From Paenibacillus albicereus (lineage in GTDB: Bacteria; Bacillota; Bacilli; Paenibacillales; Paenibacillaceae), in contig NZ_CP051428.1 of assembly GCF_012676905.1 (NCBI RefSeq), forward strand, positions 4,709,001 to 4,773,000: a stretch of 64,000 bases of DNA, read 5' to 3'. A program made the translations under genes and the position numbers. The stretch's first letter is position 1, and every line of letters starts with the position of its first letter. The notes under the pieces are model-generated. The model saw only the letters and a list, made by a program, of their open reading frames with translations, did no database searches and was not told the origin of the DNA. Below, one piece after another: positions 28,601 to 50,347 of the stretch.

Positions 28601-30001
28601 GTAATAGCGCGCTCCTTCCTGGAACGCGAAGCGCGGATTGATCTGGATCCGGCTGCTGCCGAAGCCCGTGACCTGGTCGGACGTGACCGGGATCGTCGCC
28701 GCGATCGCCGAATCCGGCAAGCTGCGCACGATGATGCTGCCCGATCCCGGATAGACGGCCCGGTCGAAGCTGATCGCCAGCTTGCTTTCGCCGGCCGCGA
28801 TCGTCTCCCCGCCGCCCGGAGACAGGCCGGTCAGCGACGGCCCCTTGCTGTCGCTGACCGCGCGGGTCGCGAATGTCCAGGCCGCCGCGTCGCGGATGCC
28901 GGCGAACAGCAGGTCGCCGCTGCGGAATGCGGCGGCATCGACCAGCACATAATAAGCCGTGCTGCCGGCAAGGCCGTTATGCGGAAGCGCGACGCTCCTG
29001 CCGCCGTCGGCGTAGCTCAGCTGATCCGCGCTCCAGCTTTGGACCGTGCTGTTGTCGGATACTTTTTTCAGCTCGATGCGCTTCGGCGAGGCGGCGCTGC
29101 TGTTCGGGCCGACCGGCTTGTCGAACGTGAGCCGCAGCGCCGTCCCGACGTCGACGCCTTGACTGGCGTTGGCGGGGCTCATGCCTGTCACTCCAATCGG
29201 CGAAGCCGCCGTCTGGAAGCTCCAGCTCATCGGTCCGGACCGGTTGCCGGAGCCGTCCTGCACGAGGCCCGCCGGGGCGCTGACCGTGTACGACTGACTC
29301 GGCAGCAGGCCGCTCGGCGGCGCGATCGACAGCACAGTCGTCCCTCCGCCGCTGACCAGCGTCGAGGTGATGCCGATCGGCGCCGTGTCTCCGGTCGATG
29401 CGTTCGTCAGCTGGAGGAAGCCCTCGGCCGGAAAAACCGCTTCGTTGAAGGTGACGCGCAGCGCCGAGAACACCGATGCTGCCCCTTGGCCCGAATTCGG
29501 ACTGTATTCCGTCGCATACGGCGCGGAGGTGTCCGGCTGAGCGGCGGTGAAGTTCCACTCTGTCGCGCTCGAAATGCCGGCAAAGGCTCCGCTGCCCGAC
29601 TGGCTGACGAAGCTGCCGCCTTCGATGAGCACATAATAAGACTGCCCCGGCTCGAAGGGCCGATCCGGCTGGATCGTCACCCGCGACGCGTTCGAGGAGT
29701 CGACCGCCACCCGGCTTTCCGAAACGGCATAGCTCGCCCATACGGCGTTGTCCGAGACCTTGCGGATGGAGATCGCCGCGGCACCGTTGCCTTTTAGGAC
29801 CGGCTCGTCGAAGAACAGCGAAAGCCAGACGTTCGCCGGTGCCGCCGCAGCGTCGTCAGCCGGATACTTGCCCGCTGCGACAGGCCCCCCTTGGGCCGCA
29901 TAAACGGTTCCGGCCTTCCATCCGGCCGCAGGCAAAAGCGTATGGACGAGAACGAGCAAAGCGACAAATCCTTTCAACCACATTCGTTTTCCCACGATCA
30001 T
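25625..30001 (-). CDS. Giant exported Ig-like repeat protein with three C-terminal SLH domains
   Basis: 1458 residues from the ATG at 30001, chosen because GGGGAG lies 7 bases upstream (an ATG at 30025 has no such site). Signal peptide MWLKGFVALLVLVHTLLPAA. About five SbsA-type Big_5 domains follow (repeated SAxxWNFTA and SGxGxVFSALRVTFNEAV-like phrases: EWNFTA, WSFQTA, WTFATR, WSFTAT, WRFKTL). Then come beta domains with repeated VTLTYNEGLNGTLLP / VTLLYSMALDPTAVP phrases, and a unique ~200-residue domain. Three SLH domains end the protein (DIAGHWAKNDISALA with ITRAELAEFISRALG; GQFRPNDPVSRQEMAAMIIR; KADQFVPAGKATRAEAVVMM). It would sit on the wall by pyruvylated polymer made by CsaB. Role unknown. 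Confidence 0.88.
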   Translation of the reverse strand: MIVGKRMWLKGFVALLVLVHTLLPAAGWKAGTVYAAQGGPVAAGKYPADDAAAAPANVWLSLFFDEPVLKGNGAAAISIRKVSDNAVWASYAVSESRVAVDSSNASRVTIQPDRPFEPGQSYYVLIEGGSFVSQSGSGAFAGISSATEWNFTAAQPDTSAPYATEYSPNSGQGAASVFSALRVTFNEAVFPAEGFLQLTNASTGDTAPIGITSTLVSGGGTTVLSIAPPSGLLPSQSYTVSAPAGLVQDGSGNRSGPMSWSFQTAASPIGVTGMSPANASQGVDVGTALRLTFDKPVGPNSSAASPKRIELKKVSDNSTVQSWSADQLSYADGGRSVALPHNGLAGSTAYYVLVDAAAFRSGDLLFAGIRDAAAWTFATRAVSDSKGPSLTGLSPGGGETIAAGESKLAISFDRAVYPGSGSIIVRSLPDSAIAATIPVTSDQVTGFGSSRIQINPRFAFQEGARYYVEIGTQAVRDAAGTAFAGLSGSSAWSFTATRDWTPPSILMLRPASGSDSVSTIASFEAVFTEPVRLSDGHQIRIRRAGSSDTYAVQAHVPADRPDTVVIRPDAPLPGGGEYYMEIGVNSIRDGAGNGFGGILNEHQWRFKTLRATAAAPALSKVEMLSPSKIRLTYDNELDPAAVPYPASFYVTVNDASAAREISQASVAGNTVVLELRSGILNGQKVTVAYTAPTDPDSMRAIRGLGGARAAGFSGRQATYDAQAAQPKLTGGTVSGSQLRLLFSDALGPAKAEWTSQFSLYVDGRYHTLAEPSVSGNALTFKLTSAAGGAGGAYINYAPGTNPVMDQSGNLLAAFSGAYIQNLLDTSRPMLTDVTASGSKVTLTYNEGLNGTLLPLRSQFAVLNGSSSMSISGVTVEGNKLILTLAGSLTTGTTVKVSYVQGVPPLADLAGNAAESFSNREAGVSGTYPAFLSGSASGTAVTLLYSMALDPTAVPSPAQFSFRANGTLIPVSSVSISGLAVSLQLSSPVAPGQTLTLTYSPPTYNALRLSGGDAAPALSSVAIANASAGDSTGSGGGASGATPGQLTQMDVSTSSDVSPAGRVATRYTVLNERLAAAFQAARAAGQSKVSFKVPDANKAGLVALPLASLQQAMGSAGNASFEVQFDTLTVELPLQAIDYEKTAKLLNAGGTTGYLLLSLDSGASSLAGTLQFAMSRAGASLLAGPISIDLSLVSGSSAAKVAYSGLKRMMTTTIRSASPIPAAQAAGVFYDAETSLMSYVPTKTQSAGSGSAVVLKHRDGGVFAIARGSAVLSDIAGHWAKNDISALAAKAIVRPRTNSSFEPKKTITRAELAEFISRALGLKGNMAAASSAYRDTNGLGAAAAYIGAASAAGIVEGSGGQFRPNDPVSRQEMAAMIIRAVEAAEMKIVPPQQELSYLEKFKDRGKIGSWAKSYAAKAVYIGVLNGQKADQFVPAGKATRAEAVVMMKRMLQYLNMIDV

Positions 30002-30095
30002 TCCTTCACTCCCCGAGTTGAACATTCGTAGTTACTTTGTCGGTCGCGGCGGAGGGAATGTTTAGGAAAAATGGGGAAAGCGATAGCAGCTGCAC

Positions 30096-35269: not shown

Positions 35270-35362
35270 GACATACCCTCCTGAATCCATATAGCTCTTA
35301 GACGCAGAGAATCTCTCCTTTGTTTCTGTTATTTACCGGCTGCGCCAACTTTTGTGAACAAC

Positions 35363-35399
35363 AAAAAAAAGAGCAAGCAGGAAATCCTGCTTGCTCTTT
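35363..35399 (-). terminator. S-layer gene terminator
   Basis: On the minus strand a 15-bp stem AAAGAGCAAGCAGGA/TCCTGCTTGCTCTTT followed by a further T-run; 20 bases after the S-layer stop. Very strong. Confidence 0.95.
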
Positions 35400-35418
35400 G
35401 GGGATGATGGCCGGTTGA

Positions 35419-38172
35419 TTAGTTGACAACAACCGTCGTCGTAGCGGTTACGCCCGTGTTCGTTACGAACGTGATCGTAGCCGTTCCTTTTTTCTTGCCC
35501 GTAACAGCGCCTTCTTGATTAACGGTAGCGATGTCCGTGTTGGAAGAAGAGAAGTATCCGACTGGAGCTACTTCAACACCGTATTGGTCTTTGACCTTCA
35601 CGGATACCGTAGTGGAACCAGTGAACTCGTACTCGGATTTACCGAATTCAACCGTTTTTGCAACCGGTGCGTCTTCGGAAACCGTCACTTCTTGCGTTGC
35701 AACAGCAGAGTTGCCAACGTAAGCCGTAATCGTAGCTTTACCTGCTTTTTTACCTACCACTTTGTTGCCGCTCACTCCAGCAACCGTGATGTCCGAGCTG
35801 GATACGAAGGCAGGAGCGGAGGATGCCAGAGCAACCGTAACGCCTGCGGACGTTTTACCGGTCAGGGTAACCGTCTTCGCATATGCAGCACGAGCGTCTT
35901 TGTCTGCGTAAGCCGTACCGACAGATTTGATCTCGTACGATTTAACAGCACTGGACTCTACTACATCAACGGTGAACGCGTAGGACTCAGCGTTAGCCGT
36001 CTTGGACTTAACCGTCACCGTTGCAGAGCCAGACTTGTCAGCTGCAGCGACCAGTTGACCGCCCGTGTAGTTCAGCAGGCCTTCAACATCGGATTTGACT
36101 TCAACCGTATAGGTATCAGCTGCAGCCGTGGAAGTGCGGCCGTAGTTATCAACCAGCGTGATGTTGTCTTTGCCGAAGTCGACTTTGGCGCCATCTTCGA
36201 GAGTCGTGATGACATCTTTAACGCCGTTCACGCCGGTCGTGTAAGATGCTTTTTGAATCTGTACAGACAGCGTGGAAGGAGCGGAAACGCTCGTTTTACC
36301 GCGTGCCACGATGTACGTGTAGCCTTCTTGCGTGAACTTCAGGACGAGTTCGCCTTTAGCATTCACTTTCGGGTAGTTTGCTTCCAGGTAGTTGGCGTTG
36401 AATTCCAGTTGGCTCAGGTCAAGAGCCGTACCTTTGATCTCGCCACCGAAGGAGTCGGAAGCTACGAACGGGAAGACCACTTCTTCGCCCGCTACCACGA
36501 GGGAGCTAGGAGCGCCGATTTGGAAATCTTTCACGACAGCAGCGCCAGCAACGTTAATGATGATGGACTTGGAGATGCCCGCGCTTGGGTTGCTGATCGT
36601 CAGCGTCGTGGATCCAGCAGCTTTCGCCGTGAATTTCAGTACGCCTTTGCTGTCAACGGTGATTTTCTCAACAACGCGGTTGTCGCTGTTGTAGAAGAAC
36701 AGACCGTCTTTGTCTTTGTAGTTGCTGTATACGTTAGCAGCTACGCCGTCTTTGAAGTTGATGTCGCCAGCCGTCAGCGTAATTGCTTGGCCGTTAGCAT
36801 CTTTCAGCGTCAGCGGGATGATGAGGCCCGTTTCGCCAGCGGAGATGCGGGATTTGCCAGCCAGCGGCTGAACTTCGCCCAGGTCAAGAACCGTAGCCGT
36901 GGAGCCCGTTACGACGTTCAGCGTTTTAGAAACGCTGAGGCCAGTGGATGGAGCAACAGCCGTTACGGCAATCTTGTCGTTCGGGTTAGCGCCGGAAGTT
37001 TTGAGGTTCACCTTGCCAGCAGAAACCGTGATCGTTTTCGAAGGTTGTGTCGTGTTGTAGGCTTGAACGTATGTGCTGTTTGTAGCCGTTACGTCTTCAC
37101 CGAATTGGTTAAGAACTTTTACGCCCAGGTCTACGTTGTCCGCCAGTTGAAGAGCAGGGGCCGTAACGTCGATTTTTGTAGCTGCGCTTGCAGCGACTTT
37201 AACCGAGAACGGAGTGTCCGAGCCTTTAACCGTCAGCGTGTAGTCGCCTACAGGCAGGTATACAGCAGACAGGACAACGGATTTGTTGTCGTCAGCGTAT
37301 TTAGCCGTTACAGGGAACGTAGACAGGTTGGATTTCAGCGTATAGCCGCCATCCATGTACGTTTTTTCAGTAGCCGTCAGCGCTCGGTTGAATTTAACCG
37401 TGATCGCTTTCGCGCCGGATTGAGCCGCTTCCGTAGCTTTAACGGCTTGCAGCGTCACTTTCACATCGTACGATTTGCCGTTGTAGGAAACCGCAACCGT
37501 CGTTTCTTTACCGACTTCCAGTGCCGTCGTCAGCGTTTGCTTCACGACTTGGTTGTCGGAGAAAGTAACCTCGATGTTCGTAGCGTCGACAGCAACAGCG
37601 GACTTGACGGATACAGCTGCATCCGACAGATCGTAGATTGCTTCAACAACTTGACCGCGGGTAGCGGCTACTTTGTAGGAAGCAGCGGAATCGATGAGGC
37701 CAGCGTCGATAGCGGCTGCTACGTAGCCTTTTGCCCAAGCGCTTACTGCTCCGGATACGGCGCCGTCAGCTTTAGGCTGCAGGCCAGCTGCGATAACGAG
37801 CGTTTTCGCAACTTGCTCAACCGTCAGGGACTGGGAAGGTCCGAACAGGTTGTTGCCGAGGCCGTTCAGGTAGCCGGCTTTCGTGCCAGCGCCGATGAAG
37901 CCTTTAGCCCAGTGAGTTGCCGATACGTCCTTGTAGTTTGCTGCAGCGGCGTCTTGCGTCAGGCCGTTGAGCAGTACGAGAACTTTGGAGAACTCAGCGC
38001 GCGTGATGTTCTTCGTCAGGCCAGCCGTACCGTCCGGATAGCCAGACAGGATTCCAGCTTGCTTCAGAGCATCGAATTTCTGTTGCGGGGACAGTTCAGC
38101 CGCGAAAGCGGAGCTTGCGAATACGGAAGTTACGAGTGCGCCTGTAACGACCAGGGATAAACTTTTCTTCAT
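35419..38172 (-). CDS. Main S-layer protein with N-terminal SLH domains
   Basis: 917 residues. Signal peptide KKSLSLVVTGALVTSVFASS with AFA cleavage site, then three SLH modules (residues ~26-190: FDALKQAGILSGYPDGTAGL with ITRAEFSKVLVLLNG; AKGFIGAGTKAGYLNGLGNN; WAKGYVAAAIDAGLIDSA). The rest is Thr/Val/Ala-rich Ig-like domains ending in two Big_2-like repeats (ITVAGVSGNKVVGKKAGKAT, ATVNQEGAVTGKKKGTATIT). Low Cys, few bulky residues and a narrow codon set suggest very high expression, as for an S-layer. AGGAGG lies 13 bases and AAAGG about 2 bases before the ATG at 38172. An in-frame ATG at 38250 with GGGGGTG upstream would add 26 residues. Confidence 0.92.
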   Translation of the reverse strand: MKKSLSLVVTGALVTSVFASSAFAAELSPQQKFDALKQAGILSGYPDGTAGLTKNITRAEFSKVLVLLNGLTQDAAAANYKDVSATHWAKGFIGAGTKAGYLNGLGNNLFGPSQSLTVEQVAKTLVIAAGLQPKADGAVSGAVSAWAKGYVAAAIDAGLIDSAASYKVAATRGQVVEAIYDLSDAAVSVKSAVAVDATNIEVTFSDNQVVKQTLTTALEVGKETTVAVSYNGKSYDVKVTLQAVKATEAAQSGAKAITVKFNRALTATEKTYMDGGYTLKSNLSTFPVTAKYADDNKSVVLSAVYLPVGDYTLTVKGSDTPFSVKVAASAATKIDVTAPALQLADNVDLGVKVLNQFGEDVTATNSTYVQAYNTTQPSKTITVSAGKVNLKTSGANPNDKIAVTAVAPSTGLSVSKTLNVVTGSTATVLDLGEVQPLAGKSRISAGETGLIIPLTLKDANGQAITLTAGDINFKDGVAANVYSNYKDKDGLFFYNSDNRVVEKITVDSKGVLKFTAKAAGSTTLTISNPSAGISKSIIINVAGAAVVKDFQIGAPSSLVVAGEEVVFPFVASDSFGGEIKGTALDLSQLEFNANYLEANYPKVNAKGELVLKFTQEGYTYIVARGKTSVSAPSTLSVQIQKASYTTGVNGVKDVITTLEDGAKVDFGKDNITLVDNYGRTSTAAADTYTVEVKSDVEGLLNYTGGQLVAAADKSGSATVTVKSKTANAESYAFTVDVVESSAVKSYEIKSVGTAYADKDARAAYAKTVTLTGKTSAGVTVALASSAPAFVSSSDITVAGVSGNKVVGKKAGKATITAYVGNSAVATQEVTVSEDAPVAKTVEFGKSEYEFTGSTTVSVKVKDQYGVEVAPVGYFSSSNTDIATVNQEGAVTGKKKGTATITFVTNTGVTATTTVVVN

Positions 38173-38395
38173 AACCTTTTTGTCTCCTCCTCTAACCTGC
38201 TTAAGTATGTGAGAGTGTTTGGTGGAACTATGAGTGCTCTTTGTACTCATCTGTTGTGTCACCCCCTTCCCAGAGTGTGGGAGCAGTATAATATAGAAAA
38301 ATGTCTGCTTCATGCTGTAGACACGTGTGAAAACATGTCGCAGAAACTCGTAGAATCAAGTAGAAAATAATGGAAACCTGTCAAACCACTAAACC

Positions 38396-38797: not shown

Positions 38798-41700
38798 TTA
38801 ATTGATTTTAGGCAAGCGCTTCAGTCCGACCAGCACTTTTCCAAGAATGATGCCGGAGTCGGAACGAAGCAGGTTCGCCTTCGGCTCGAAGACATAGCCG
38901 TTCTTCGGATTGGAGCTGTCTACCGGAGAGCCTTGGATGTAGCCCTTCTGGTAGATCGCCAGCACCGAGGCACGGGCGTAGTAGTCGATGCCGCTGTAGT
39001 CCTTGAACGCTTTTTGCAGCGCCTTCTCGATCTTGGCCGGGTCTGTCTCCAGCTTAAGCTTGAGGGCCCGGGCCAGGATGACGGCCGCATCCTCGCGGGT
39101 CAAGTTGCTCGTCGGCTCGAAGGTTTTCGGCGCCTTGCCGCGGATATAGCCTTCATTGAACGCGGTCTCGATATAACGGTAGTCCCACAGCGCGGTGCTC
39201 TCGACGCCGACGTCGTTGAACAGCCGCTTTGACGGATCGGTGTTGTAGTTGAGCTGCGCGCCGAGAGCCTTGACCATCATCGTGGCGAACTCGCCGCGCG
39301 ACGTGTACAGGCTGGATCCGAACTCATCGAGGCCTGCCGCGTTCATGAAGCCTTTGGCATACATCGCCTCAAGGTAGTTGCGCGCATAAGGATGCGACGT
39401 AATGTCGAGATAGGAATATTTCAACTGTCCCACGACATAATAACCGAACTCGCGGAACGGTACCGTAACAGTATTCTTCTTCGTGTCCACGACGCCGCCC
39501 AGGTTCACCCACTCCGGCTTTTTCGGATCGAAGTGGAACACGGTAATGAATGTTCCGTTCGCGTCGACGATATTGCTGTCGTAAGACAGCGTCAGCTTGG
39601 CTTCTTTCGAAGCAATAAGCTCACGATTAATGGGGCGATCTACGTAGGACGGAAGATCGGCCGTAGGATATTGATAAGGATCGATGCCGTACGTCAACGG
39701 ATCATTGATGCTGTCCGTCTGCGGATTGTCCGCCATGCCCGCGTCAATCCAGAACACTTTGCCCGCCTTGTTGAAATTCGATGAGAACGTGTTCTCGAAC
39801 ATATTGCCGAGACTTTCGAGAATCAGGTCGAAGTTGGCCGGAGGCACTTCGAACTCATGCCGGTCGACGACGCCATCGGCCGGATTGGCGATGCCGAACA
39901 GCAGGCGGTGTCCGGTGAACACCTGGTTCTTGAGCTTCTCCGGCACGTTGTAGTCGCGGCGGATGAGCGTCGTCGATTTCGGGAAGGTCAGCTGCAGCTC
40001 GCCCTCGAACAGCTTGTGCGAACTCTTCATCTCTTCCATGAACCCTGCGCCTGGAATGTTGGTCGGCGCATAAGTGACGGTGATCGTGCCGTTGATCGAA
40101 TCGTTGTCGTTGGCGATCGTGAACTTCAAGTCGTTCTTGCCCGCCTTGAGGCCGCTGATGACCACGCGATAGGCCGTCGTGTAGTCGACCGTGCCGTCGT
40201 TGTCGGCGTCATAAGCGATTTTTTCGCCGTTCAGTTTGTTCACCGTAACCGTCTTGGCGCTAGGCGCGTCGATGACGACCTCGACGAAGTTCTGGTTGAC
40301 GATGCGCTTGCTGTTCAGCGGGCGCAGGATTTTGTACGGCAGCGCCGTAGGATCGACCTCCAGGCGGTAGCTGGCGCGCGCGCCGGCTTCGCCGTTGTTG
40401 TAGACGTAGAAGTTGTACACGCTGGACGTGCCGTCCTTGCTCAGGTACTGGTTGGACAGTACCCAGGAGAACGTCTGCGTCTTGAGATCATAAGTGACGA
40501 CGAGCTTGGGAACGCGCTCACCCTGCTTTGGAATCTCCGGGAGGGTGCTGCCGGTATTAATCGTTCCGACGGATTGCTGGTCTTTGGGCAGTCCCGTATC
40601 AATGACGCGAAGCTCCTTTGCCAGCGTCCAAACGATAGGCGCCGTCATGTTGCTGCCTTCGATCTTCAGGATGAATTTGCTTTTGTCGATCGTGTTGCTG
40701 GTAATTGCAGTAGTAGCGGCTTCAATACTTGTGCCTAAATCAATGAAGTCGAACGTTCCGTGCACGTTCATATAAGGTTCCTTGGTCGTGAACACGCTGC
40801 CCGATTTCGGGAAGTTCGGATCGTTGGCCAGCGGAGCCGGCATATCGCTGCTGTACGGATAGATGCTGTCCGCCTCTACGGGAATGACCGGCAGGTTGAC
40901 TTGGTTGAGGAAAATAGTGATTGAGTTCTCGTAGTTGTTCTTGCTTCCCTTGTAGACGAACTTCAGATTGAAGGCGCCAGCGGACTTCATGATCTCCTTG
41001 GCGGCTGCTAATCCTACTGTCGTCGCTTTAAACGAATTTATCGCTCCGTTCTGCTCAATAGCGATTGGCGCGTTGTTGATGTAGAAGAACATCGTCTGAG
41101 GCTTGCCGTCTCCTGACGGAGCATAGCGGACATCAGAGAGATCGTTCAAGTTGGTCAACGTTGCGGAGAAATTTTTGAATTTATCTGCAACGATCGTATC
41201 CAGCTGGGTTGCTTTCGTTGAGTCGTAGTCGATTTTCATCGTGTCGTAGATGCTGTCATATTTGAGGAACGGTCCGAACAGCATGTTGAACGTGACCGCA
41301 CCCGATATTGAAGCGTTGTTGTCATACTGGAACGTCACCGTCTGCGTGCCCTCGTACGGCAGCTTCGTAAAGACGATGAGCTTGCGCACGAACGTCTTGT
41401 TGACGCCGTTGACCGTTTTGGTGACGGTTGTCGTATACGTCTGGCTGTCATCGATCGGTTGATTGGTCGAAGTATACGTCGTTTCCTTGCCGTTGATATC
41501 CGTTATCTTCGACACGGACAAGGGAGAAGTCGTGTCCGACGAGTTGCCGATCAGCACCTCGACCGCCAGCGGCGTATCGTAGATATTCACGCCGGTGAGC
41601 GGCTTGCTCTCGTTGTTGCGGTCCTGCGTCGTTTTATAATTCGGGATGTAATTGATTTCGCTGATGAACGGAGCCGTCGAATTGCGCAGCGTGAACTTGA

Positions 41701-42883
41701 GGTTGTACACGCCTTGGGACTCGTTCGCTACCGTGTTCAGCGTCTCCAGCGTCAGGAAATAGGCTTTGTCGTACGCATAGCTCGCAGCCGTCGTCAGCTG
41801 GCTGAGCTTGATGTCGACCTTGTAAATGAAGAAGGGGTCCTCCGGGCTGTAGCCGCCGGCGCTCACGGTCGGAATCGCATTGACCGGCGCCGCCGCCGTT
41901 CCGTCCAAGCGAGGCGTAATCTGGATCGGCTGCGTCGGGTCCGGGTTCGGGACCGTCACGCCGTTCACGACTTTTTTGTTGTTCGGCACGATGACCGTGC
42001 CGGTTACGCTGAGGTCCGAAGGCGTGCCGGCCTTGCTCGTCCCGAAGTCGGGCGAGTACTCCAGAGCGGCGCTGTTCTTGATCGCCCCGCTGTCCAGTTC
42101 GTTCAGGTTCAGGTCATAGAACGTCACTTCGCCGTTGTAGAACGCGATCTCTCGCGTCGTCTCGACGGTCTGGTTGTTGTTCGTCACCTTGATCGTCACG
42201 AGGTTCTTGCCTTTCTTGACGGTCAAAGGCGAAAGCGTGAACTCGTAGTTGTTCGTCGCGGAGACGTTGTAGGTGCGGCTTCCGCCGTTCACCTCGATCG
42301 TCACCTTCTGCGCGTTGGGCGCGTTGCCGGTGATGGCGATATCGGCCGAAGTCCGGCCGCGCGAGGCGCCGGAGGAGACGACGGTCGTCGCATTCTCCTT
42401 CATCGGGAACGCGTTGCCGTCCAGGCGTGCGGCCAGGTTGTAGAACACCGGACCGTCATGATACATGATATAAATGGAGGTCGACACTTCCGCGCCGCCT
42501 TGCAGCCCCTTGAACGTGATTCGGTTCAGGCCGGAGTACAGCTGCACGTTGTTCGCCGCCAGGTTGTAGCCGGTAAGGTAGATGCCGCCCTTGACGTTTT
42601 CGGTCTTGGATCCGGTCTGGTCGTCGGCCGGGTCTTCCGTATTGTTGTTGTTGACGATCTGGATGACGCTGTACGTGATGCTCGACGGATCGATGTTGCT
42701 GACCGAGCCCTCCAGATTGACCCGGCCGTTCGTCGTCACCCGGGGATTGAGCGAGCTGCTCGTCTCTTTGGGGAATGTGAAATAGCCGGTCGCGGCCGCA
42801 TCGGCCGTCCGGGCCGGCAGTACCGGCAGCAGCTGGACCACGAGGGCCAGCATAAGGACCATGGCGCTGAGTCGTTTGAACAC
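38798..42883 (-). CDS. Giant exported protein with C-terminal SLH domains
   Basis: 1361 residues. GTG start 6 bases after GGAGGAGG. Signal peptide FKRLSAMVLMLALVVQLLPV with cleavage near ADAAAT. The body contains several beta domains with Ig-like phrases (ADIAITGNAPNAQKVTIEVN, LTVKKGKNLVTIKVTNNNQT, VVISGLKAGKNDLKFTIAND), then a domain with GHRLLFGIANPADGVVDRHE, and three C-terminal SLH modules (HPYARNYLEAMYAKGFMNAA; YRYIETAFNEGYIRGKAPKT with LTREDAAVILARALK; ASVLAIYQKGYIQGS). SLH motifs deviate from ITRAE (SRGE, TRED, LRSD). It lies between the S-layer gene and tagO and may be a second S-layer or wall-maintenance protein. Confidence 0.87.
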   Translation of the reverse strand: MFKRLSAMVLMLALVVQLLPVLPARTADAAATGYFTFPKETSSSLNPRVTTNGRVNLEGSVSNIDPSSITYSVIQIVNNNNTEDPADDQTGSKTENVKGGIYLTGYNLAANNVQLYSGLNRITFKGLQGGAEVSTSIYIMYHDGPVFYNLAARLDGNAFPMKENATTVVSSGASRGRTSADIAITGNAPNAQKVTIEVNGGSRTYNVSATNNYEFTLSPLTVKKGKNLVTIKVTNNNQTVETTREIAFYNGEVTFYDLNLNELDSGAIKNSAALEYSPDFGTSKAGTPSDLSVTGTVIVPNNKKVVNGVTVPNPDPTQPIQITPRLDGTAAAPVNAIPTVSAGGYSPEDPFFIYKVDIKLSQLTTAASYAYDKAYFLTLETLNTVANESQGVYNLKFTLRNSTAPFISEINYIPNYKTTQDRNNESKPLTGVNIYDTPLAVEVLIGNSSDTTSPLSVSKITDINGKETTYTSTNQPIDDSQTYTTTVTKTVNGVNKTFVRKLIVFTKLPYEGTQTVTFQYDNNASISGAVTFNMLFGPFLKYDSIYDTMKIDYDSTKATQLDTIVADKFKNFSATLTNLNDLSDVRYAPSGDGKPQTMFFYINNAPIAIEQNGAINSFKATTVGLAAAKEIMKSAGAFNLKFVYKGSKNNYENSITIFLNQVNLPVIPVEADSIYPYSSDMPAPLANDPNFPKSGSVFTTKEPYMNVHGTFDFIDLGTSIEAATTAITSNTIDKSKFILKIEGSNMTAPIVWTLAKELRVIDTGLPKDQQSVGTINTGSTLPEIPKQGERVPKLVVTYDLKTQTFSWVLSNQYLSKDGTSSVYNFYVYNNGEAGARASYRLEVDPTALPYKILRPLNSKRIVNQNFVEVVIDAPSAKTVTVNKLNGEKIAYDADNDGTVDYTTAYRVVISGLKAGKNDLKFTIANDNDSINGTITVTYAPTNIPGAGFMEEMKSSHKLFEGELQLTFPKSTTLIRRDYNVPEKLKNQVFTGHRLLFGIANPADGVVDRHEFEVPPANFDLILESLGNMFENTFSSNFNKAGKVFWIDAGMADNPQTDSINDPLTYGIDPYQYPTADLPSYVDRPINRELIASKEAKLTLSYDSNIVDANGTFITVFHFDPKKPEWVNLGGVVDTKKNTVTVPFREFGYYVVGQLKYSYLDITSHPYARNYLEAMYAKGFMNAAGLDEFGSSLYTSRGEFATMMVKALGAQLNYNTDPSKRLFNDVGVESTALWDYRYIETAFNEGYIRGKAPKTFEPTSNLTREDAAVILARALKLKLETDPAKIEKALQKAFKDYSGIDYYARASVLAIYQKGYIQGSPVDSSNPKNGYVFEPKANLLRSDSGIILGKVLVGLKRLPKIN

Positions 42884-43053: not shown

Positions 43054-44187
43054 CTATTTGCCGCGCTGCTGATCGGGCTTGAGCCTCATGCGGGCCAGCA
43101 GGCTCAGCAGCGGCCGCTTGGACTTGTCGACGATGCCGATCAGCTCGGCGCCGATCTGCATGAAGAACACAAGCAGGCTGATGACGACGAACGTCACCCA
43201 GTTGGCCGCATGCGACTGCACGAAGATCGACTGTACGATCGCCGCGAGACCGAAGAAAGCGGCCACGCCGTAGATGATGAGCACCGTTTTGCGATGGCTG
43301 AAGCCGAGCTCGCGCAGGCAGTGGTGCAGATGGCCCTTGTCGGGCGCGAAGATCGGCCGCTTGTTGACCCAGCGGCGGATGATCGCGAAGAACGTGTCCG
43401 CGATCGGCACGCCGATGATGAGCAGAGGCGTGATGAGGGAGACGACGGTGACCTGCTTGAAGCCGATCATCGACAGCGTCGCCAGCATGAAGCCGAGGAA
43501 CAGCGAGCCGGAGTCTCCCATGAAAATCTTGGCCGGATGGAAGTTGAATACCAGGAAGCCGAGGATGCCGCCGAGCAGCAGGCAGCTCATCAGGATGATC
43601 GGCTCGAAGCCGAGCACGAACGCCATGATGAGGATCGTCGTGATGGCGATGCCGGACACGCCTGCGGCCAGTCCGTCTAGGCCGTCGATCAGGTTGATCG
43701 CGTTCGTCACGCCGACGATCCAGAAGATCGTCAGCGGGATGCTGATCCAGCCCGATATCTCCTGCATGCTCTGGCCGAACGGGATGTTCAGCAGGTCGAT
43801 CTTGACGCCGAAGCCGAAGACGACGACGCTGGCGGCGACAAGCTGCAGCAGTAGCTTGACCTTGGCCGACAGTTCGAATCGGTCATCGAGCGCGCCGGTC
43901 AGCACGATGATCGTGCCGCCCGCCAGCATGGCCCGGATCAGATTGCGGTCATACGCGCTCAGCAGGCCGTCCGGAATGAACGGCAGCACGACGAAGAACG
44001 AGCCGATAAAGGCCAGGAAGATGGCAAGGCCGCCCAGACGCGGCATGATGCGGGTATGGACCTTGCGGGCATTGGGCTTGTCGATCGCGCCGACCTTAAA
44101 GGCGAAGCGCTTGACGAGCGGCGTCAGTCCGAGCGCCAGGACAAGCGCGACGGCAAATCCGGTTATATAAAGCAATGTGGCATTCAC
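43054..44187 (-). CDS. tagO: TagO-type undecaprenyl-phosphate GlcNAc-1-phosphate transferase
   Basis: 377 residues with about ten membrane helices. MraY/WecA/TagO motifs are present: KPNARKVHTRIMPRLGGLAI, TGALDDRFELSAKVKLLLQL (catalytic DD), NAINLIDGLDGLAAGVS, FMGDSGSLFLG and GHLHHCLRELGFSHR. It loads GlcNAc-1-phosphate onto the undecaprenyl carrier, the first step for wall teichoic acid or secondary wall polymer. The GTG start lies 10 bases after GGGGAG. It heads away from the tagA-csaB group on the same strand and probably has its own promoter (TATAAT at 44227-44222). Confidence 0.94.
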   Translation of the reverse strand: MNATLLYITGFAVALVLALGLTPLVKRFAFKVGAIDKPNARKVHTRIMPRLGGLAIFLAFIGSFFVVLPFIPDGLLSAYDRNLIRAMLAGGTIIVLTGALDDRFELSAKVKLLLQLVAASVVVFGFGVKIDLLNIPFGQSMQEISGWISIPLTIFWIVGVTNAINLIDGLDGLAAGVSGIAITTILIMAFVLGFEPIILMSCLLLGGILGFLVFNFHPAKIFMGDSGSLFLGFMLATLSMIGFKQVTVVSLITPLLIIGVPIADTFFAIIRRWVNKRPIFAPDKGHLHHCLRELGFSHRKTVLIIYGVAAFFGLAAIVQSIFVQSHAANWVTFVVISLLVFFMQIGAELIGIVDKSKRPLLSLLARMRLKPDQQRGK

Positions 44188-44221
44188 TGGAATTCAACTC
44201 CCCTTAAGTTCACCGGAATGA

Positions 44222-44246
44222 ATTATAACTCGCATGAAAAAGAAAC
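44222..44246 (-). promoter_or_regulatory. Possible promoter of tagO
   Basis: On the minus strand TATAAT (44227-44222), 35 bases before the GTG. An acceptable TTGGTG -35 is only found at 19-base spacing, so this is a weak assignment. Confidence 0.35.
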
Positions 44247-44289
44247 ACCAACCCCAATATTCGGTCATTTCACAGCGAATATCGGTGAA

Positions 44290-45213
44290 TTATCGAAGAT
44301 CGTAGGGTTTTGTCACCTTTTCCTTGTCCCGGATCACTTTTAGAGCGAATTGCGGCAAGACGAGCATTCTCCGGAACCGCGTCGGCTGCTGCAGCAGGCG
44401 ATAGAACCATTCGAGGCGGAGCTTCTGCATGAAGACGGGAGCCCGCTTCAGCCTGCCGGCGATGATGTCGAAGCTGCCGCCTACGCCCATGACGAGCGGA
44501 ACGCCGAGCTCCTGCTTGTAGCGGGCGATCCAGGGCTCCTGCGTCGTCGCCGAGCGGGCGACGAACAGCATATCCGGATGAGCTTCTCGGATGCGGGCGA
44601 TAATCTCCGGATCGTCTTTTTCGCCGAAGAATCCGTGGTGGGTGCCGACGATGCGGGTGCCCGGGTACCTCTCCCCGAGCTTGGCCGCGGCTTCGTCGAT
44701 GACCTCCTGCGTCGTGCCGAGCAGATAGGCCGTCCATCCCCGCTCTTCCCCTTCGAGGAAGAGCCGATGCATGAGGTCGAAGCCCGGCACCCGTTCCCGT
44801 ACGGGCTGGCCGACATGGCCGGCCGCCCAGACGACGCCGGCGCCATCCGGCACGACGAGATCCGCCTCGCGGAGCATCCGATGGAATGCCGGATCTTCCA
44901 AGCCCATCATGACCATGATCGGATTGGCCGTCACGATCTGCGAAGGGCGGCCGGCTTCGATCCGATAGGTAAGGTATTCTACCGTCTCGTCCATCCCCAT
45001 GCGGGAAAAGGGCACCCCGTAGATGGATACCTTCGGCACGAGCCGGCTCTCCAGCCATTCGGTCGCATCCGTGGCGTCCTCCATCGCTTCCGCGAGGCGA
45101 ACCGCTTCGGGAGCGTCGGGGGAGGCCTCTCCGCCGTCCGTTCGGATTCCATCAGCCGTCCGAGCGGTGGAGCCTGCCGTTTCTTTGTTGTTGGAATTGA
45201 TATTCGTCGACAT
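44290..45213 (-). CDS. tagA: WecG/TagA/CpsF family glycosyltransferase
   Basis: 307 residues from the ATG at 45213 (AAGG 8 bases upstream); a GTG at 45228 overlaps the csaB stop as GTGA and is an alternative. After a ~55-residue charged N-terminus come the GT26 motifs: IVTANPIMVMMGLEDPAFHR, ADLVVPDGAGVVWAAG, GWTAYLLGTTQEVIDEAAAK, GTHHGFFGEKDD and VMGVGGSFDIIAGRLKRAPV. It likely adds ManNAc to lipid-linked GlcNAc to complete the wall-polymer linkage unit. The usual hydrophobic Gly/Pro loop before the QE motif is replaced by VARSATTQEPW. Last gene of a run with csaB. Confidence 0.88.
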   Translation of the reverse strand: MSTNINSNNKETAGSTARTADGIRTDGGEASPDAPEAVRLAEAMEDATDATEWLESRLVPKVSIYGVPFSRMGMDETVEYLTYRIEAGRPSQIVTANPIMVMMGLEDPAFHRMLREADLVVPDGAGVVWAAGHVGQPVRERVPGFDLMHRLFLEGEERGWTAYLLGTTQEVIDEAAAKLGERYPGTRIVGTHHGFFGEKDDPEIIARIREAHPDMLFVARSATTQEPWIARYKQELGVPLVMGVGGSFDIIAGRLKRAPVFMQKLRLEWFYRLLQQPTRFRRMLVLPQFALKVIRDKEKVTKPYDLR

Positions 45214-45224
45214 GGGTCGAACCT

Positions 45225-46376
45225 TCACCTCTTCGCTTTTTGACGCAGCTGGCGGACGATATGTTGCGCGGGCTCGACCGCCTCCCGCTGCAGCCGGTCG
45301 ATGAGCGGAGCCTTGTCGGCGCGCCAGGCGGCGGAGCCGTCCAGCAGCCTTTCAGCCGCATCCGCGAAGGCGGAGGCGTCCATCGCCTCGGTCGTCGCGG
45401 CCGCACGCTCCTGCAGCCTCGCCAGGAACTGATCGATCTTGGGATCGTAGCTGATGCCGAGCATCGGGACCCGCTGGCCGGCGGCATAGATGAGCGCGTG
45501 CAGCCTCATGCCGACCAGCAGGTCGCATCGGCTGACCTCCAGCAGCATTCGCTGCGGATCGTCGCCGGGCTCGGCAAGCTCGGCGCTGCTGCCCGGACCG
45601 AGCTCGCCGAGCCGCTCCATCGCCTCGCGCGATGCCTCCGCATCCGCCGGCGTATGGAACGGCAGGAAGCGCAGGCGCACCGGGCGGCGGCGCGCCAGCT
45701 CGCCCAGCGCCTCCGCGGCGCGGATCAGGTCGGCTCCGTCCTTGCGCCAGCGGCGCAGGGAGATGCCGACCACCGGCGTGCGATCTCGCGCATCGCCGGC
45801 CGTCGCCTCGGCGCCTTTGGGCAGCGGCAGGCCCATGACCGGATCCGGCACGACGCTGATCCGCTCCGACGGGACGCCCATCCGGCCGAGCAGCTCGGCG
45901 GATTCGGCGTCGCGCACCGATACATAGGCGCTGCGCGTCATGACATGGCGGATGAGGCCGTCCATGCAGCGGTTCAGCACCGGACCGACGCCTTGGGCAT
46001 AGATGAACGTCGGCTTGCCGAGCAGCTGAGCCAGCTTGAGGATGCCGGCATAATAAGGGATCGTCTTGCTCCCCGTCACGTCCTGCAGCAGACTGCCTCC
46101 TCCGCTGATGAGCCCGTCGCAGCGGGCGATCGTCCGCAGCAGTCCTCCCGGACTCATCCTGCCGGCCGCCTGGACGCCGTACATCGACTCCGTCCAGGCC
46201 GGGTCGCCCGAGAGCACGATCGGCTCGATGCGGACGCCTTGAGCGCTGCCCTCGGCCTCCAGCGCGAGCAGAATCGACTTGAGCACCGCTTCGTCGCCGC
46301 TGTTGCGGAAGCCGTAGTAGCCGGAAATGGCGATCCGAAGCGCGCGCGGGGCGTTTGCATCGCGAGGCTCAGGCAT
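45225..46376 (-). CDS. csaB: Polysaccharide pyruvyl transferase CsaB
   Basis: 383 residues from the ATG at 46376 (GGAGG about 9 bases upstream, overlapping the previous stop). CsaB signature: IAISGYYGFRNSGDEAVLKS, LISGGGSLLQDVTGSKTIPY, FIYAQGVGPV and DLLVGMRLHALIYAAG with KIDQFL near the end. CsaB adds a pyruvate ketal to the secondary wall polymer, creating the ligand for SLH domains. This links it to the three SLH proteins encoded upstream in this window. It is followed by the TagA-like gene. Confidence 0.94.
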   Translation of the reverse strand: MPEPRDANAPRALRIAISGYYGFRNSGDEAVLKSILLALEAEGSAQGVRIEPIVLSGDPAWTESMYGVQAAGRMSPGGLLRTIARCDGLISGGGSLLQDVTGSKTIPYYAGILKLAQLLGKPTFIYAQGVGPVLNRCMDGLIRHVMTRSAYVSVRDAESAELLGRMGVPSERISVVPDPVMGLPLPKGAEATAGDARDRTPVVGISLRRWRKDGADLIRAAEALGELARRRPVRLRFLPFHTPADAEASREAMERLGELGPGSSAELAEPGDDPQRMLLEVSRCDLLVGMRLHALIYAAGQRVPMLGISYDPKIDQFLARLQERAAATTEAMDASAFADAAERLLDGSAAWRADKAPLIDRLQREAVEPAQHIVRQLRQKAKR

Positions 46377-48510
46377 GGACCGAGGCCTCCTTGAAGCGGC
46401 TGCGCAGCCTGCGGAACAGCGCCTCACCGATCTGCCAAGCGGCAATGAGCACGAGGCCGATGAGGAGGCCGAGGCCGAGGCCGAGCAGCACGCGGATAAG
46501 CGACATCGGCAGCGGCGTATGGATATGGGTAAATGTGCCCACCATCGACAGCTGGCCCATCGCTCCTACAACAAGCAATACCCAGGCCGCGCGATAGCGA
46601 AGCGCCAGGAACAGGCCGAGAAGCATAAGCGGATGCGCGAGCAGGAATTCCTTGGTCCGCGGTCGCACGCCGAACGTCGACTCCAGCAGGTTGCGGAAGA
46701 CGAGTTCGAAGCCTGGCGCGGTGCCGCTGTTGCCCGTCCGCGACAGATAGTAGAGCCCGACGATCCCCAGCACGGCCGCCGCCGAGATCCAAAGAATCGT
46801 GATCTGCAGGCTGAGCACGCGTCGCAGGCTTGTCCAAAAGCTGCCGCCAGTGAACAGGAACAGATACACCGCCGCCAGTCCCATCGGGGCCAGCGCCAGC
46901 AGGTTGACGCCTCGGAACTGCTCCAGGACGAGGCTGTACGTGATGTTGTTGAGCAGCCCGACGACGATCGGTACGGCAAGCAGCGAGATGAGGGTCGTCA
47001 CGATGAACATGACGAGCGCCATCGACAGCCTCCGTCCGGCGGATAAGCCATGGAACACCCAGCGGGTTCCAGGCTGGCTGAGGCCGCCGAGCATCGCGCT
47101 CCATGGCGAGACCTGGAACGTCGCCTCCGAGCCGGATGCGGTCCATTCGCCGCCTACGGCCCTGCGCGGTCCGTCGGTGTGGGCATAGATGCGGTTGATG
47201 ACCCACACCATCGCCAGCGTCGGAGCCGCGATCGCCGCTCCGAGCGCCAGTCCCTGCTCCATCAGCGAGCTGTTCAGCACGTACAGGCCGGCGCTGCCGG
47301 CGAGGCCGAGCAGGAAGACCGGAAGGGTCAGTCCGCTGAAGAATGCGCCTGCAAGCAGCGCGATGAGGCTGACGGCTCCGAGCACGGCAGCGCCTTTGAG
47401 CGGCTTGTGCCACGACGGCTGGTCGCGCTCGAAGGCGGTCGCCTGTCCCGACGGGAAGCCGGCGCGGTCCAGCGTCTGGACCGCTCCGTCCTTGCCGCCG
47501 ATCGAAGCGTACAGGTTGTCCATCGGATGGGTCACCATGCCTTTGTCCAGATTGGACGAGGGCGCGGCATTCAGATAGAACATCCGGATGTTGCGATCCT
47601 TGGCCGCCAGCAGGAAGCGGTCCACGATGACGTCGGGCTTGAGCGCAGCCGCATCCTTGTCGGACAGCGAGTACAGCCGCGCTACATTATAGTGCGTCTT
47701 ATACGCAAGCGTATTCAGCCCTTCTTGAGGCTTTTTGAGGTTCTCGATCGCAGAAAGGCCGATGCCGTACTTGTTGAGCAGCTCGGCGAAGCCGTCCAGG
47801 CTGCGAAGGTTCGCCTGCTCCGCCGCCCCTTTGACGGCATTGCCGTCGAACAGGATGCGCGTGACGCCCAGCTCCTTGAAGCGGGCCAGCATGCCGTCGG
47901 CCTGCCGCTGATCGTACGGGATGCGGTCCGAGAGGCGGGGCAGCAGCTGGAAGCCGGCTTGGCTGAGCCGATCCAGCGCGAGCGGGTCCGGCTCCATCGT
48001 CTTGAGCACCGCATCGGACAACGGCGTCTCCAGCACGAGCCCCGCGAGGCCGTCGAACGACCAGTCCTCGACGCGGATGCCGGAGGCTTCGAAGCGGTCG
48101 CGGATGATCGGCTCCAGCGCCGCCTGCTCCGCTCCGCCTTCGAACAGCAGATATGTGAAGTTCCGATTGGCCGGAACCGGCTTGTTCTGCAGCAGCGCCG
48201 CTTCCGCTTCGCTGTACAGGCCGAGCCGGCCGGCCATCTCCAGCTCGTCGAGCCGGCTTTCGAACACGGACATCGTGCCTACGCCCGCGGCCTTGAGCTT
48301 TTCGAGCTCGGCGCCCAAGAACTCCTCCGGCTTGGCCTGATAAGAAGCCACGAGCACCAGATCGGAATAATCGAACACGTACTCCACCGTATCGGCGGTC
48401 TTCTCCATCTGCCACCGGCTTGCGCCGATCGGCATCGACAGGGCGACGCCTACGAGCGCCAGCACCCACAGCACCTTGCGGGCTCCCCGATTCCACTGCT
48501 GCCATTTTAA
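46369..48510 (-). CDS. DUF5693 multi-pass membrane protein next to csaB
   Basis: 713 residues from a GTG at 48510 preceded by AAGGGAG; an ATG at 48546 exists but lacks a ribosome site. An N-terminal membrane helix (VLWVLALVGVALSMPIGASR), a ~340-residue extracellular domain (FKELGVTRILFDGNAVKGAA, IRMFYLNAAPSSNLD) and at least eight C-terminal membrane helices. This is the DUF5693 layout found beside csaB in Paenibacillus. Function is unknown; multi-span topology plus an outside domain would suit flipping, polymerising or modifying the wall polymer (inferred). It overlaps csaB by 8 bases. Confidence 0.85.
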   Translation of the reverse strand, partial: LKWQQWNRGARKVLWVLALVGVALSMPIGASRWQMEKTADTVEYVFDYSDLVLVASYQAKPEEFLGAELEKLKAAGVGTMSVFESRLDELEMAGRLGLYSEAEAALLQNKPVPANRNFTYLLFEGGAEQAALEPIIRDRFEASGIRVEDWSFDGLAGLVLETPLSDAVLKTMEPDPLALDRLSQAGFQLLPRLSDRIPYDQRQADGMLARFKELGVTRILFDGNAVKGAAEQANLRSLDGFAELLNKYGIGLSAIENLKKPQEGLNTLAYKTHYNVARLYSLSDKDAAALKPDVIVDRFLLAAKDRNIRMFYLNAAPSSNLDKGMVTHPMDNLYASIGGKDGAVQTLDRAGFPSGQATAFERDQPSWHKPLKGAAVLGAVSLIALLAGAFFSGLTLPVFLLGLAGSAGLYVLNSSLMEQGLALGAAIAAPTLAMVWVINRIYAHTDGPRRAVGGEWTASGSEATFQVSPWSAMLGGLSQPGTRWVFHGLSAGRRLSMALVMFIVTTLISLLAVPIVVGLLNNITYSLVLEQFRGVNLLALAPMGLAAVYLFLFTGGSFWTSLRRVLSLQITILWISAAAVLGIVGLYYLSRTGNSGTAPGFELVFRNLLESTFGVRPRTKEFLLAHPLMLLGLFLALRYRAAWVLLVVGAMGQLSMVGTFTHIHTPLPMSLIRVLLGLGLGLLIGLVLIAAWQIGEALFRRLRSRFKEASVHA

Positions 48511-48555
48511 CACTTGTCCACTCGCTCCCTTGACTGCATGTTCCATGATGGCGCG

Positions 48556-48589
48556 CAGGGCGGGGCGTCTCTCGCTCCCGCCCTGCGGC
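48556..48589. repeat. GC-rich hairpin between the phosphohexomutase and DUF5693 genes
   Basis: GCAGGGCGG...CCGCCCTGC perfect 9-bp stem, without a T-run. Possibly an mRNA-stabilising or weak terminator element in an otherwise continuous minus-strand gene run. Confidence 0.5.
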
Positions 48590-48637
48590 TGTTCGATCTA
48601 TATCGGCCGCAACGTCTCCGTTCGAGAGGCAGCCGCC

Positions 48638-50347
48638 TTAGGCCAGCGCGTCGACGCGCTCCATGACGGAGGAGCGAAGCGCCTCCAGCGCCGCGCCTGC
48701 CGCTTGCTGCGAATCGCCGCGTACCGCGAAGTATACCTTGATCTTCGGCTCGGTGCCCGACGGACGCAGCGTGAACCAGGAGCCGTCCTCGAGCATGTAC
48801 TTCAGCACGTTCTCCTTGGGCAGGCCGTCCAGGCCGAGGCTGTAGTCGAGCACCTCGGCGATCTTGACGCCGCCGGCTTCGGCCGGCGGGGAGTTGCGGA
48901 AGCTGTCCATGATAGCGTCGATCTTCTGCACGCCGTCCAGCCCCTTGAGAGTGCGCGATTCCAGCCCCTCCAGATAGGTGCCGTACTCGGCGTACAGCTC
49001 CAGCAGCACGTCGTACAGCGTCTTGCCTTGATGCTTGTAGAAAGCGGCCGCCTCGGCGATCAGCATCGCCGCGACGACGGCGTCCTTGTCGCGGGCGTAC
49101 ATGCCGGTCAGGTAGCCGTAGCTTTCCTCGTAGCCGAAAAGGAACGCATGCGACCCGGTCCGCTCGAACTCCGTCATCTTCTCGCCGATGTACTTGAAGC
49201 CGGTCAGCGTATTGATGACCTCCGCTCCGTGCGCCTTGGCGATGTCCGCCCCCATCTCGCTCGTCACGATCGTCTTGACGACGACTCCGTTCGCCGGCAG
49301 CTGGCCGCGCTCCTTGAGCTGGCTGAGCACGTAGTTCACCAGCAGCGCGCCGGACTGGTTGCCGGTGAGCACGACGAATTCGCCCTGGTTGTTCCTGACG
49401 ACCGCGCCGACGCGGTCGGCGTCCGGATCGGTGCCGATGATGAGATCGGCATCCTGTTCCTGCGCCTGCCGGATCGCCAGCGTGAACGCCTCGCGTTCCT
49501 CCGGATTGGGGCTCTTGACCGTGCTGAAAAAGCCGTCCGGCTGCTCCTGCTCCTGGACGACGGACACGTTCGAGATGCCGATCTCCGCCAAGGCCTCCCG
49601 CACCGGATGGTTGCCCGTTCCGTGAAGCGGCGTGAAAATGACCTTGAGGTCGGCGCCCGCGCCGCGCTTCAGCAGATCGCGGTTCAGGCTCTGCGCCGCC
49701 ACCGCCTCGATGAAGCGGCGGTCGTCCTCCTCGCCGAGCCAGACGAGCAGGCCCTTGGCCTCGGCCTCCTCGCGGCCGAGACGCTTGATCTCGGCGAAGC
49801 TTCCCACTCGGGCGATTGCCTCGATCGCCTGCTCGGCCTCATGCGGGACGAGCTGGCAGCCTTCGGGGCCGTAGGCCTTGTAGCCGTTGTACTCGGGCGG
49901 GTTGTGGCTGGCTGTGATGACGATGCCCCCGCTCGCCCCGAGCTCCCGCACCGCGAAGCTCAGCTGCGGAGTCGGGCGCAGCGAAGGGAACAGATACGTC
50001 TTGATGCCGTTGCCGGCCAGCACGAGCGCCGCGTCCAGCGAGAACTCCGGCGAGTTGTTGCGCGAGTCGTGCGCGATGACGACCGACGGGGAATCCGTCT
50101 GGGCGAGCAGCCAATGGGCCAGCCCTTGGGTCGCCTTGCCGACGGTGTAGGCGTTCAGCCGGTTCGTGCCGGCGCCCATGACGCCGCGCAAGCCGCCCGT
50201 GCCGAATTCGAGGTCGCGGTAGAAGCGGTCGGTGATTTCCTTCTCGTCGCCGGCGATGCCGCGCAGCTCTTCCTTCGTCGCCTCGTCGATGAGCGGATCG
50301 CTCAGCCAGGCTTGATAGCGTTCGGACGCGATTGCGGTTACGGACAT
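48638..50347 (-). CDS. pgcA: Phosphoglucomutase/phosphomannomutase
   Basis: 569 residues. Catalytic phosphoserine loop GIVITASHNPPEYNGYKAYG, metal loop IIGTDPDADRVGAVV, sugar loop GYEESYGYL and phosphate-binding FTLRPSGTEPKIKVYF, all in order. The size fits the PgcA alpha-phosphoglucomutase group, which interconverts glucose 6- and 1-phosphate for UDP-glucose and wall-polymer precursors. AAGGGAG precedes the ATG. Lies between fabZ and the DUF5693-csaB-tagA group, suggesting precursor supply. Confidence 0.93.
   Translation of the reverse strand: MSVTAIASERYQAWLSDPLIDEATKEELRGIAGDEKEITDRFYRDLEFGTGGLRGVMGAGTNRLNAYTVGKATQGLAHWLLAQTDSPSVVIAHDSRNNSPEFSLDAALVLAGNGIKTYLFPSLRPTPQLSFAVRELGASGGIVITASHNPPEYNGYKAYGPEGCQLVPHEAEQAIEAIARVGSFAEIKRLGREEAEAKGLLVWLGEEDDRRFIEAVAAQSLNRDLLKRGAGADLKVIFTPLHGTGNHPVREALAEIGISNVSVVQEQEQPDGFFSTVKSPNPEEREAFTLAIRQAQEQDADLIIGTDPDADRVGAVVRNNQGEFVVLTGNQSGALLVNYVLSQLKERGQLPANGVVVKTIVTSEMGADIAKAHGAEVINTLTGFKYIGEKMTEFERTGSHAFLFGYEESYGYLTGMYARDKDAVVAAMLIAEAAAFYKHQGKTLYDVLLELYAEYGTYLEGLESRTLKGLDGVQKIDAIMDSFRNSPPAEAGGVKIAEVLDYSLGLDGLPKENVLKYMLEDGSWFTLRPSGTEPKIKVYFAVRGDSQQAAGAALEALRSSVMERVDALA

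Follow-up and report, generated by a model that had tools for sequence, protein, structure and literature searches.

DUF5693, a csaB-linked membrane protein family, as a candidate outer-leaflet polymerase in the pyruvylated cell wall polymer locus of Paenibacillus albicereus

A secondary cell wall polymer locus shared with Paenibacillus alvei

The closest described system is the secondary cell wall polymer (SCWP) locus of Paenibacillus alvei, in which the genes are arranged as orf1-csaB-tagA-tagO (PAV_RS07430-07415; PMC6030368). TagA and CsaB of this organism together produce a pyruvylated lipid-linked disaccharide in vitro (PMC6030368), and the steps after CsaB "remain elusive" (PMC6801904), with export and polymerisation of the pyruvylated repeat given as unknown (PMC6801904, PMC6030368). 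Pyruvate is carried on every repeat of the polymer (PMC10435577, PMC6801904), and polymerisation of the repeats is therefore expected after flipping. No function was proposed for orf1 in the cited SCWP papers (PMC6030368, PMC6801904). DUF5693 was not found by name in the literature searched, and the Thermus csaA/csaB papers are silent on it. The module described below is already known, being the Paenibacillus pathway for the pyruvylated SCWP that holds surface (S-layer-type) SLH proteins; the evidence on DUF5693 is new.

The window, meaning the whole stretch of 64,000 nucleotides analysed here, covers positions 4709001-4773000 of the single-contig genome (5.17 Mb) of Paenibacillus albicereus. 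This organism is close to Paenibacillus pasadenensis, with which its DUF5693 protein is 94% identical. An earlier sequence-only reading had described a module of five genes for synthesis of an SLH ligand, and all five were recovered in place on the minus strand (Table 1), their families confirmed by Pfam/NCBIfam. TagO matched the TagO/WecA-type Glycos_transf_4 family (4.7e-46) and TagA the WecG/TagA/CpsF family (5.8e-63). DUF5693 is present as one copy only in the genome and scored 614 bits against PF18949, above the gathering score, over profile positions 2-608 of 609. CsaB scored 265 bits against the TIGR03609 equivalog cut-off of 213, taken as one mark of a pyruvylated SCWP locus; another mark, TagO- and TagA-type enzymes in one unit with csaB, is also present. 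Together with the SLH proteins these results support the assignment to SLH-ligand synthesis.

The tight packing that had been reported was likewise found. The overlap between the DUF5693 gene and csaB is 8 nt (ATGCCTGA), given a csaB start at the ATG near 46376, which is probably the true start, and that between csaB and tagA is 4 nt (GTGA); tagA and tagO are separated by ~100 nt, and the phosphohexomutase gene and DUF5693 by 91 nt.

Table 1. Features of the SCWP locus and SLH protein genes in the window (window positions)
Feature	Position	Strand	Remarks
Phosphohexomutase (phosphoglucomutase/phosphomannomutase superfamily)	48638..50347	-	Four-domain, Pfam/NCBIfam; kept neighbour in Paenibacillaceae
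DUF5693 (PF18949) membrane protein, 725 aa	46369..48546	-	Candidate outer-leaflet polymerase
csaB, polysaccharide ketal-pyruvyltransferase	45225..46445	-	TIGR03609 above cut-off
tagA, WecG/TagA/TarA-type N-acetylmannosaminyltransferase	44290..45228	-	WecG/TagA/CpsF family match
tagO/wecA-type UDP-GlcNAc:undecaprenyl-phosphate transferase	43054..44187	-	Glycos_transf_4 match
Strong intrinsic terminator-like hairpin, 14-bp stem + T tail	43037-43006	-	3' of tagO, ends unit
SLH-domain protein, likely ligand user	38798..42883	-	
SLH + Ig-like (Big_2) protein, S-layer-protein-like	35419..38313	-	
Protein with three SLH domains + Big_5 repeats	25625..30025	-	

In Paenibacillus alvei DSM 29 (locus L104), the DUF5693 gene stands directly before csaB, tagA and tagO, and from this gene order orf1 is identified as the DUF5693 gene; the order DUF5693(orf1)-csaB-tagA-tagO is common to both organisms. 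Identities between the window and Paenibacillus alvei are 46.5% for DUF5693, 54.7% for CsaB, 56.3% for TagA and 69.2% for TagO. The tagO gene is reported to be essential in Paenibacillus alvei. The two loci differ in the phosphohexomutase gene, which adjoins in the window and not in Paenibacillus alvei. The adjacency is also missing from 5 further loci of Paenibacillaceae, and outside that family the gene rarely occurs close to DUF5693. The role in precursor supply proposed for it was therefore not borne out, and its relevance is made more doubtful because a GlcNAc/ManNAc polymer needs neither glucose- nor mannose-1-phosphate. The gene is probably a mere neighbour rather than a dedicated part of the module.

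At least 27 SLH matches were found in the genome. The three SLH proteins said to adjoin the module are all present in the window, but the third (25625-30025) is ~13 kb distant. Third-position GC of one SLH protein gene and its neighbour (32720-38313) is 0.55-0.58, compared with ~0.8-0.9 in the surroundings, which suggests either high-expression codon bias or foreign origin. On the opposite strand, a gene for a secreted Ig-like (Big_2) repeat protein (51243-53408, plus strand) lies between fabZ and flagellar rod-type genes.

Linkage of DUF5693 to csaB and exchange with Wzy

In a phylum sample of 249 genomes, DUF5693 was found in 153, CsaB in 215 and SLH in 217; only 4 of the 153 had no CsaB match, one of these with a very weak DUF5693 match. 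Adjacency was counted in the 112 genomes with listed positions for both DUF5693 and csaB. csaB was directly downstream of DUF5693 on the same strand in 106 of the 112 and within 6 kb in 110, and 79 out of 80 Paenibacillaceae loci had the two genes next to each other, an order far beyond chance. Wzy, MurJ and LCP genes were absent within 8 kb in all 80 Paenibacillaceae loci. No DUF5693 was found in viral contigs.

DUF5693 without CsaB was observed in three loci (L149, L190, L191), in an operon with TagO, TagA and LCP genes, a glycerophosphotransferase-like gene, a nucleotidyltransferase and Fe-ADH_2; SLH is weak or absent in the organisms concerned, and their polymer may be decorated with glycerol-phosphate. 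In genus g52 the unit LCP-deacetylase-fabZ-tagO-glycerophosphotransferase-DUF5693-tagA, without CsaB, is conserved in three species; from this a backbone of the TagO/TagA type, and not pyruvate, is the more likely substrate of DUF5693.

Among genomes with CsaB and no DUF5693, all 58 carried Wzy_C. Where csaB positions were listed, Wzy_C lay within 10 kb of csaB in 26 of 36 genomes lacking DUF5693 versus 7 of 60 with it (p=3e-9 by genome); counted by family, the figures were 10/17 versus 5/33 (p=0.003), and one family (f20) holds both states. In three loci (L113, L116, L125) a Wzy_C gene occupies the exact place of DUF5693, directly before csaB. The same pattern was seen in 76 fetched loci, with Wzy near csaB in 26/37 loci lacking DUF5693 versus 4/39 with it, and no difference between the groups for the controls tagA, tagO and MurJ. 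LCP genes were also enriched near csaB when DUF5693 was absent (18/37 versus 4/39, p=3e-4), so Wzy is not the only gene to follow this pattern. Nor are Wzy and DUF5693 always exchangeable, since two families (f24, f84; L171, L184) have both as direct neighbours. Either this combination or a tandem DUF5693 pair occupies one locus in L171, L184 and L188 and in genomes G028, G053, G068, G236 and G238, as if there were two slots, perhaps for a polymerase and a ligase.

Twelve of 60 DUF5693 genomes had no Wzy_C above the cut-off. EpsG was found in 0/12 of these and LCP in 12/12, and polymerisation is thus the step without a known candidate in these twelve. A PF13425 search of the Wzy-less genomes was silent, as was its control, and was left out of the evidence. 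The genome of the window has Wzy_C proteins elsewhere. A second gene of this genome, CsaB-like (117 bits, under the cut-off of 213), was considered as an SCWP locus and rejected; it sits in a separate exopolysaccharide-type cluster (L189, genome positions 1326000-1345500) with its own MurJ-type flippase and Wzy protein.

Architecture and conservation of DUF5693

The predicted model of DUF5693 (pLDDT 85, pTM 0.81) begins with one TM helix, followed by an outside (beta/alpha) barrel of ~320 aa (52-372) and nine further TM helices; the large outside domain noted in the earlier reading is thereby supported. The charges of the loops are consistent with an N-terminus inside the cell and with an outside position of the loops that bear RTGN, RPRTKE and H.HTP. 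Fourteen residues were invariant in 49 diverse DUF5693 proteins: R318, P442, G546, R603, G605, R618, L621, R628, P629, R630, K632, P639, H674 and R685. Within the membrane part, every one of these residues that is charged falls on the outer face in the predicted topology. In Wzy/WaaL enzymes, outer-face basic residues have been proposed to bind the lipid pyrophosphate, and the one-sided Arg/Lys/His cluster of DUF5693 would suit the same kind of binding.

The comparison with O-antigen ligase and polymerase folds that the sequence-only reading had called for was run with the isolated membrane domain of Paenibacillus alvei orf1 as query (pLDDT 84, pTM 0.82), and no solved structure matched it. 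Nothing rose above noise against the PDB and viral models (Foldseek best E 0.6 and 1.3), and the best VIA match was to unrelated transporters (Z 5.4). O-antigen ligase, Wzy and MurJ chains were absent from the structures matched by this domain, a result compatible with kinship. With matches no better than noise, the fold leaves the function undecided. When PDB sequences were searched with the profile of DUF5693, nothing was returned (best E 0.27), and none of 19 DUF5693 proteins matched the Wzy_C profile, even with E values of up to 10 allowed. Comparisons by hhalign with csaB-linked Wzy, MurJ, LCP, TagO and CsaB were all insignificant (Wzy_C probability 3%), and neither MurJ nor any other MOP family was matched with Pfam at E up to 10 or with hhalign.

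DUF5693 resembles the Wzy/WaaL superfamily (PF04932) in its slot beside csaB, in being a multi-helix membrane protein and in the invariant basic residues that face outwards, and differs from it in the lack of any sequence or profile match and in having an N-terminal barrel and ~10 TM helices; no structure of the superfamily was among the fold matches listed. Bacillus anthracis WpaA/WpaB belong to that superfamily, as cited in PMC6030368.

Proposed role of DUF5693

The reading preferred here, to which we give slightly better than an even chance, is that DUF5693 polymerises undecaprenyl-linked repeats in the outer leaflet, as a counterpart of Wzy without homology to it, in an SLH-ligand pathway with MurJ-type flipping and LCP attachment. 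The further suggestion that it founds a new structural class of outer-leaflet polymerases for such repeats, unrelated to Wzy and swapping with it beside csaB, is tentative and falls well short of even. Inside the cell, TagO and TagA would build undecaprenyl-PP-GlcNAc-ManNAc and CsaB would pyruvylate this lipid-linked unit; these steps are assigned here by homology to the Paenibacillus alvei enzymes, whose activity was shown in vitro. A MurJ-type flippase would turn the unit to the outer leaflet, where DUF5693 may join lipid-linked repeats into polymer. R603, R618, R628, R630, K632, H674 and R685 are candidates for holding the pyrophosphate and activating the acceptor, the barrel domain may bind or guide the growing glycan, and LCP enzymes would attach the finished chain to peptidoglycan.

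The alternative that survives best, though we regard it as unlikely, is that DUF5693 is a ligase or final glycosyl- or phosphotransferase that passes the finished chain to peptidoglycan or a murein linkage unit, together with LCP or in its place. The outer-face charge cluster fits this role equally, LCP genes are rarer near csaB when DUF5693 is present, and the Wzy_C swap cannot separate ligase from polymerase because O-antigen ligases and polymerases form one superfamily. However, LCP was retained in every one of the twelve DUF5693 genomes without Wzy_C above the cut-off, four LCP proteins are encoded in the genome of the window, and LCP and DUF5693 share one operon in genus g52.

Of the roles offered by the earlier reading (flippase, polymerase or ligase), the first lost ground and the other two gained it, polymerase above all. 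DUF5693 as flippase of the pyruvylated lipid-linked disaccharide would agree with a multi-helix membrane protein encoded directly before csaB and with the lack of nearby MurJ genes in the 80 Paenibacillaceae loci, but is improbable in view of the loci that carry both genes. Ten DUF5693 loci have a MurJ-type gene, typically as DUF5693-csaB-murJ-tagO; the gene was seen between csaB and tagO in L142, L143, L144 and L146, and also in L170, L174, L177, L181, L183 and L186. Four genomes with this operon were checked (G013, G100, G122, G203), and all four encode another full-length MurJ elsewhere, so the csaB-linked copy probably acts as a flippase dedicated to the SLH-ligand polymer, and a flippase role for its operon partner DUF5693 is disfavoured. 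MurJ/Wzx-type flippases (PF03023) thus accompany DUF5693 in its operons and do not replace it, their frequency near csaB being no different with DUF5693 (10/39) or without it (6/37). The invariant charges also lie on the outer face only, not across the membrane.

An equally improbable third role, that of an extracellular polymer modifier or trimmer (a membrane-anchored deacetylase- or glycosidase-like barrel) or of a chain-length regulator, draws on the conservation of E96, E268, Q274 and R290 (~88-92%) and on the resemblance of the outside domain to the DUF610/divergent polysaccharide deacetylase-type barrel of BH1492 (2nly; Z 13.1, 4.0 A, 199 residues, with unrelated barrels at ~10.5-11.5), but the conserved barrel residues include no histidine, so that a deacetylase metal site is not apparent, and the membrane part is more strictly conserved than the barrel. 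The likeness to DUF610 is one of fold, the metal-binding histidines not being conserved in DUF5693, and no DUF610-type Pfam match was obtained for the outside domain at E up to 10.

For the steps after CsaB, the present work names one gene, a direction (polymerase rather than flippase), candidate residues and, in the MurJ paralogue linked to csaB, a likely flippase. S-layers and, in Thermus, the outer envelope are held by this polymer, and with DUF5693 in 153/249 sampled phylum genomes an answer would concern a very wide range of bacteria. DUF5693 matches were also observed in the control genomes of Thermus composti, Deinobacterium chartae and Thermotoga maritima, which are diderms that anchor their envelope in the SLH manner. 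This occurrence suggests that the distribution of the family is old and, with its commonness in Bacillota, that the SLH ligand may be made by an ancient route.
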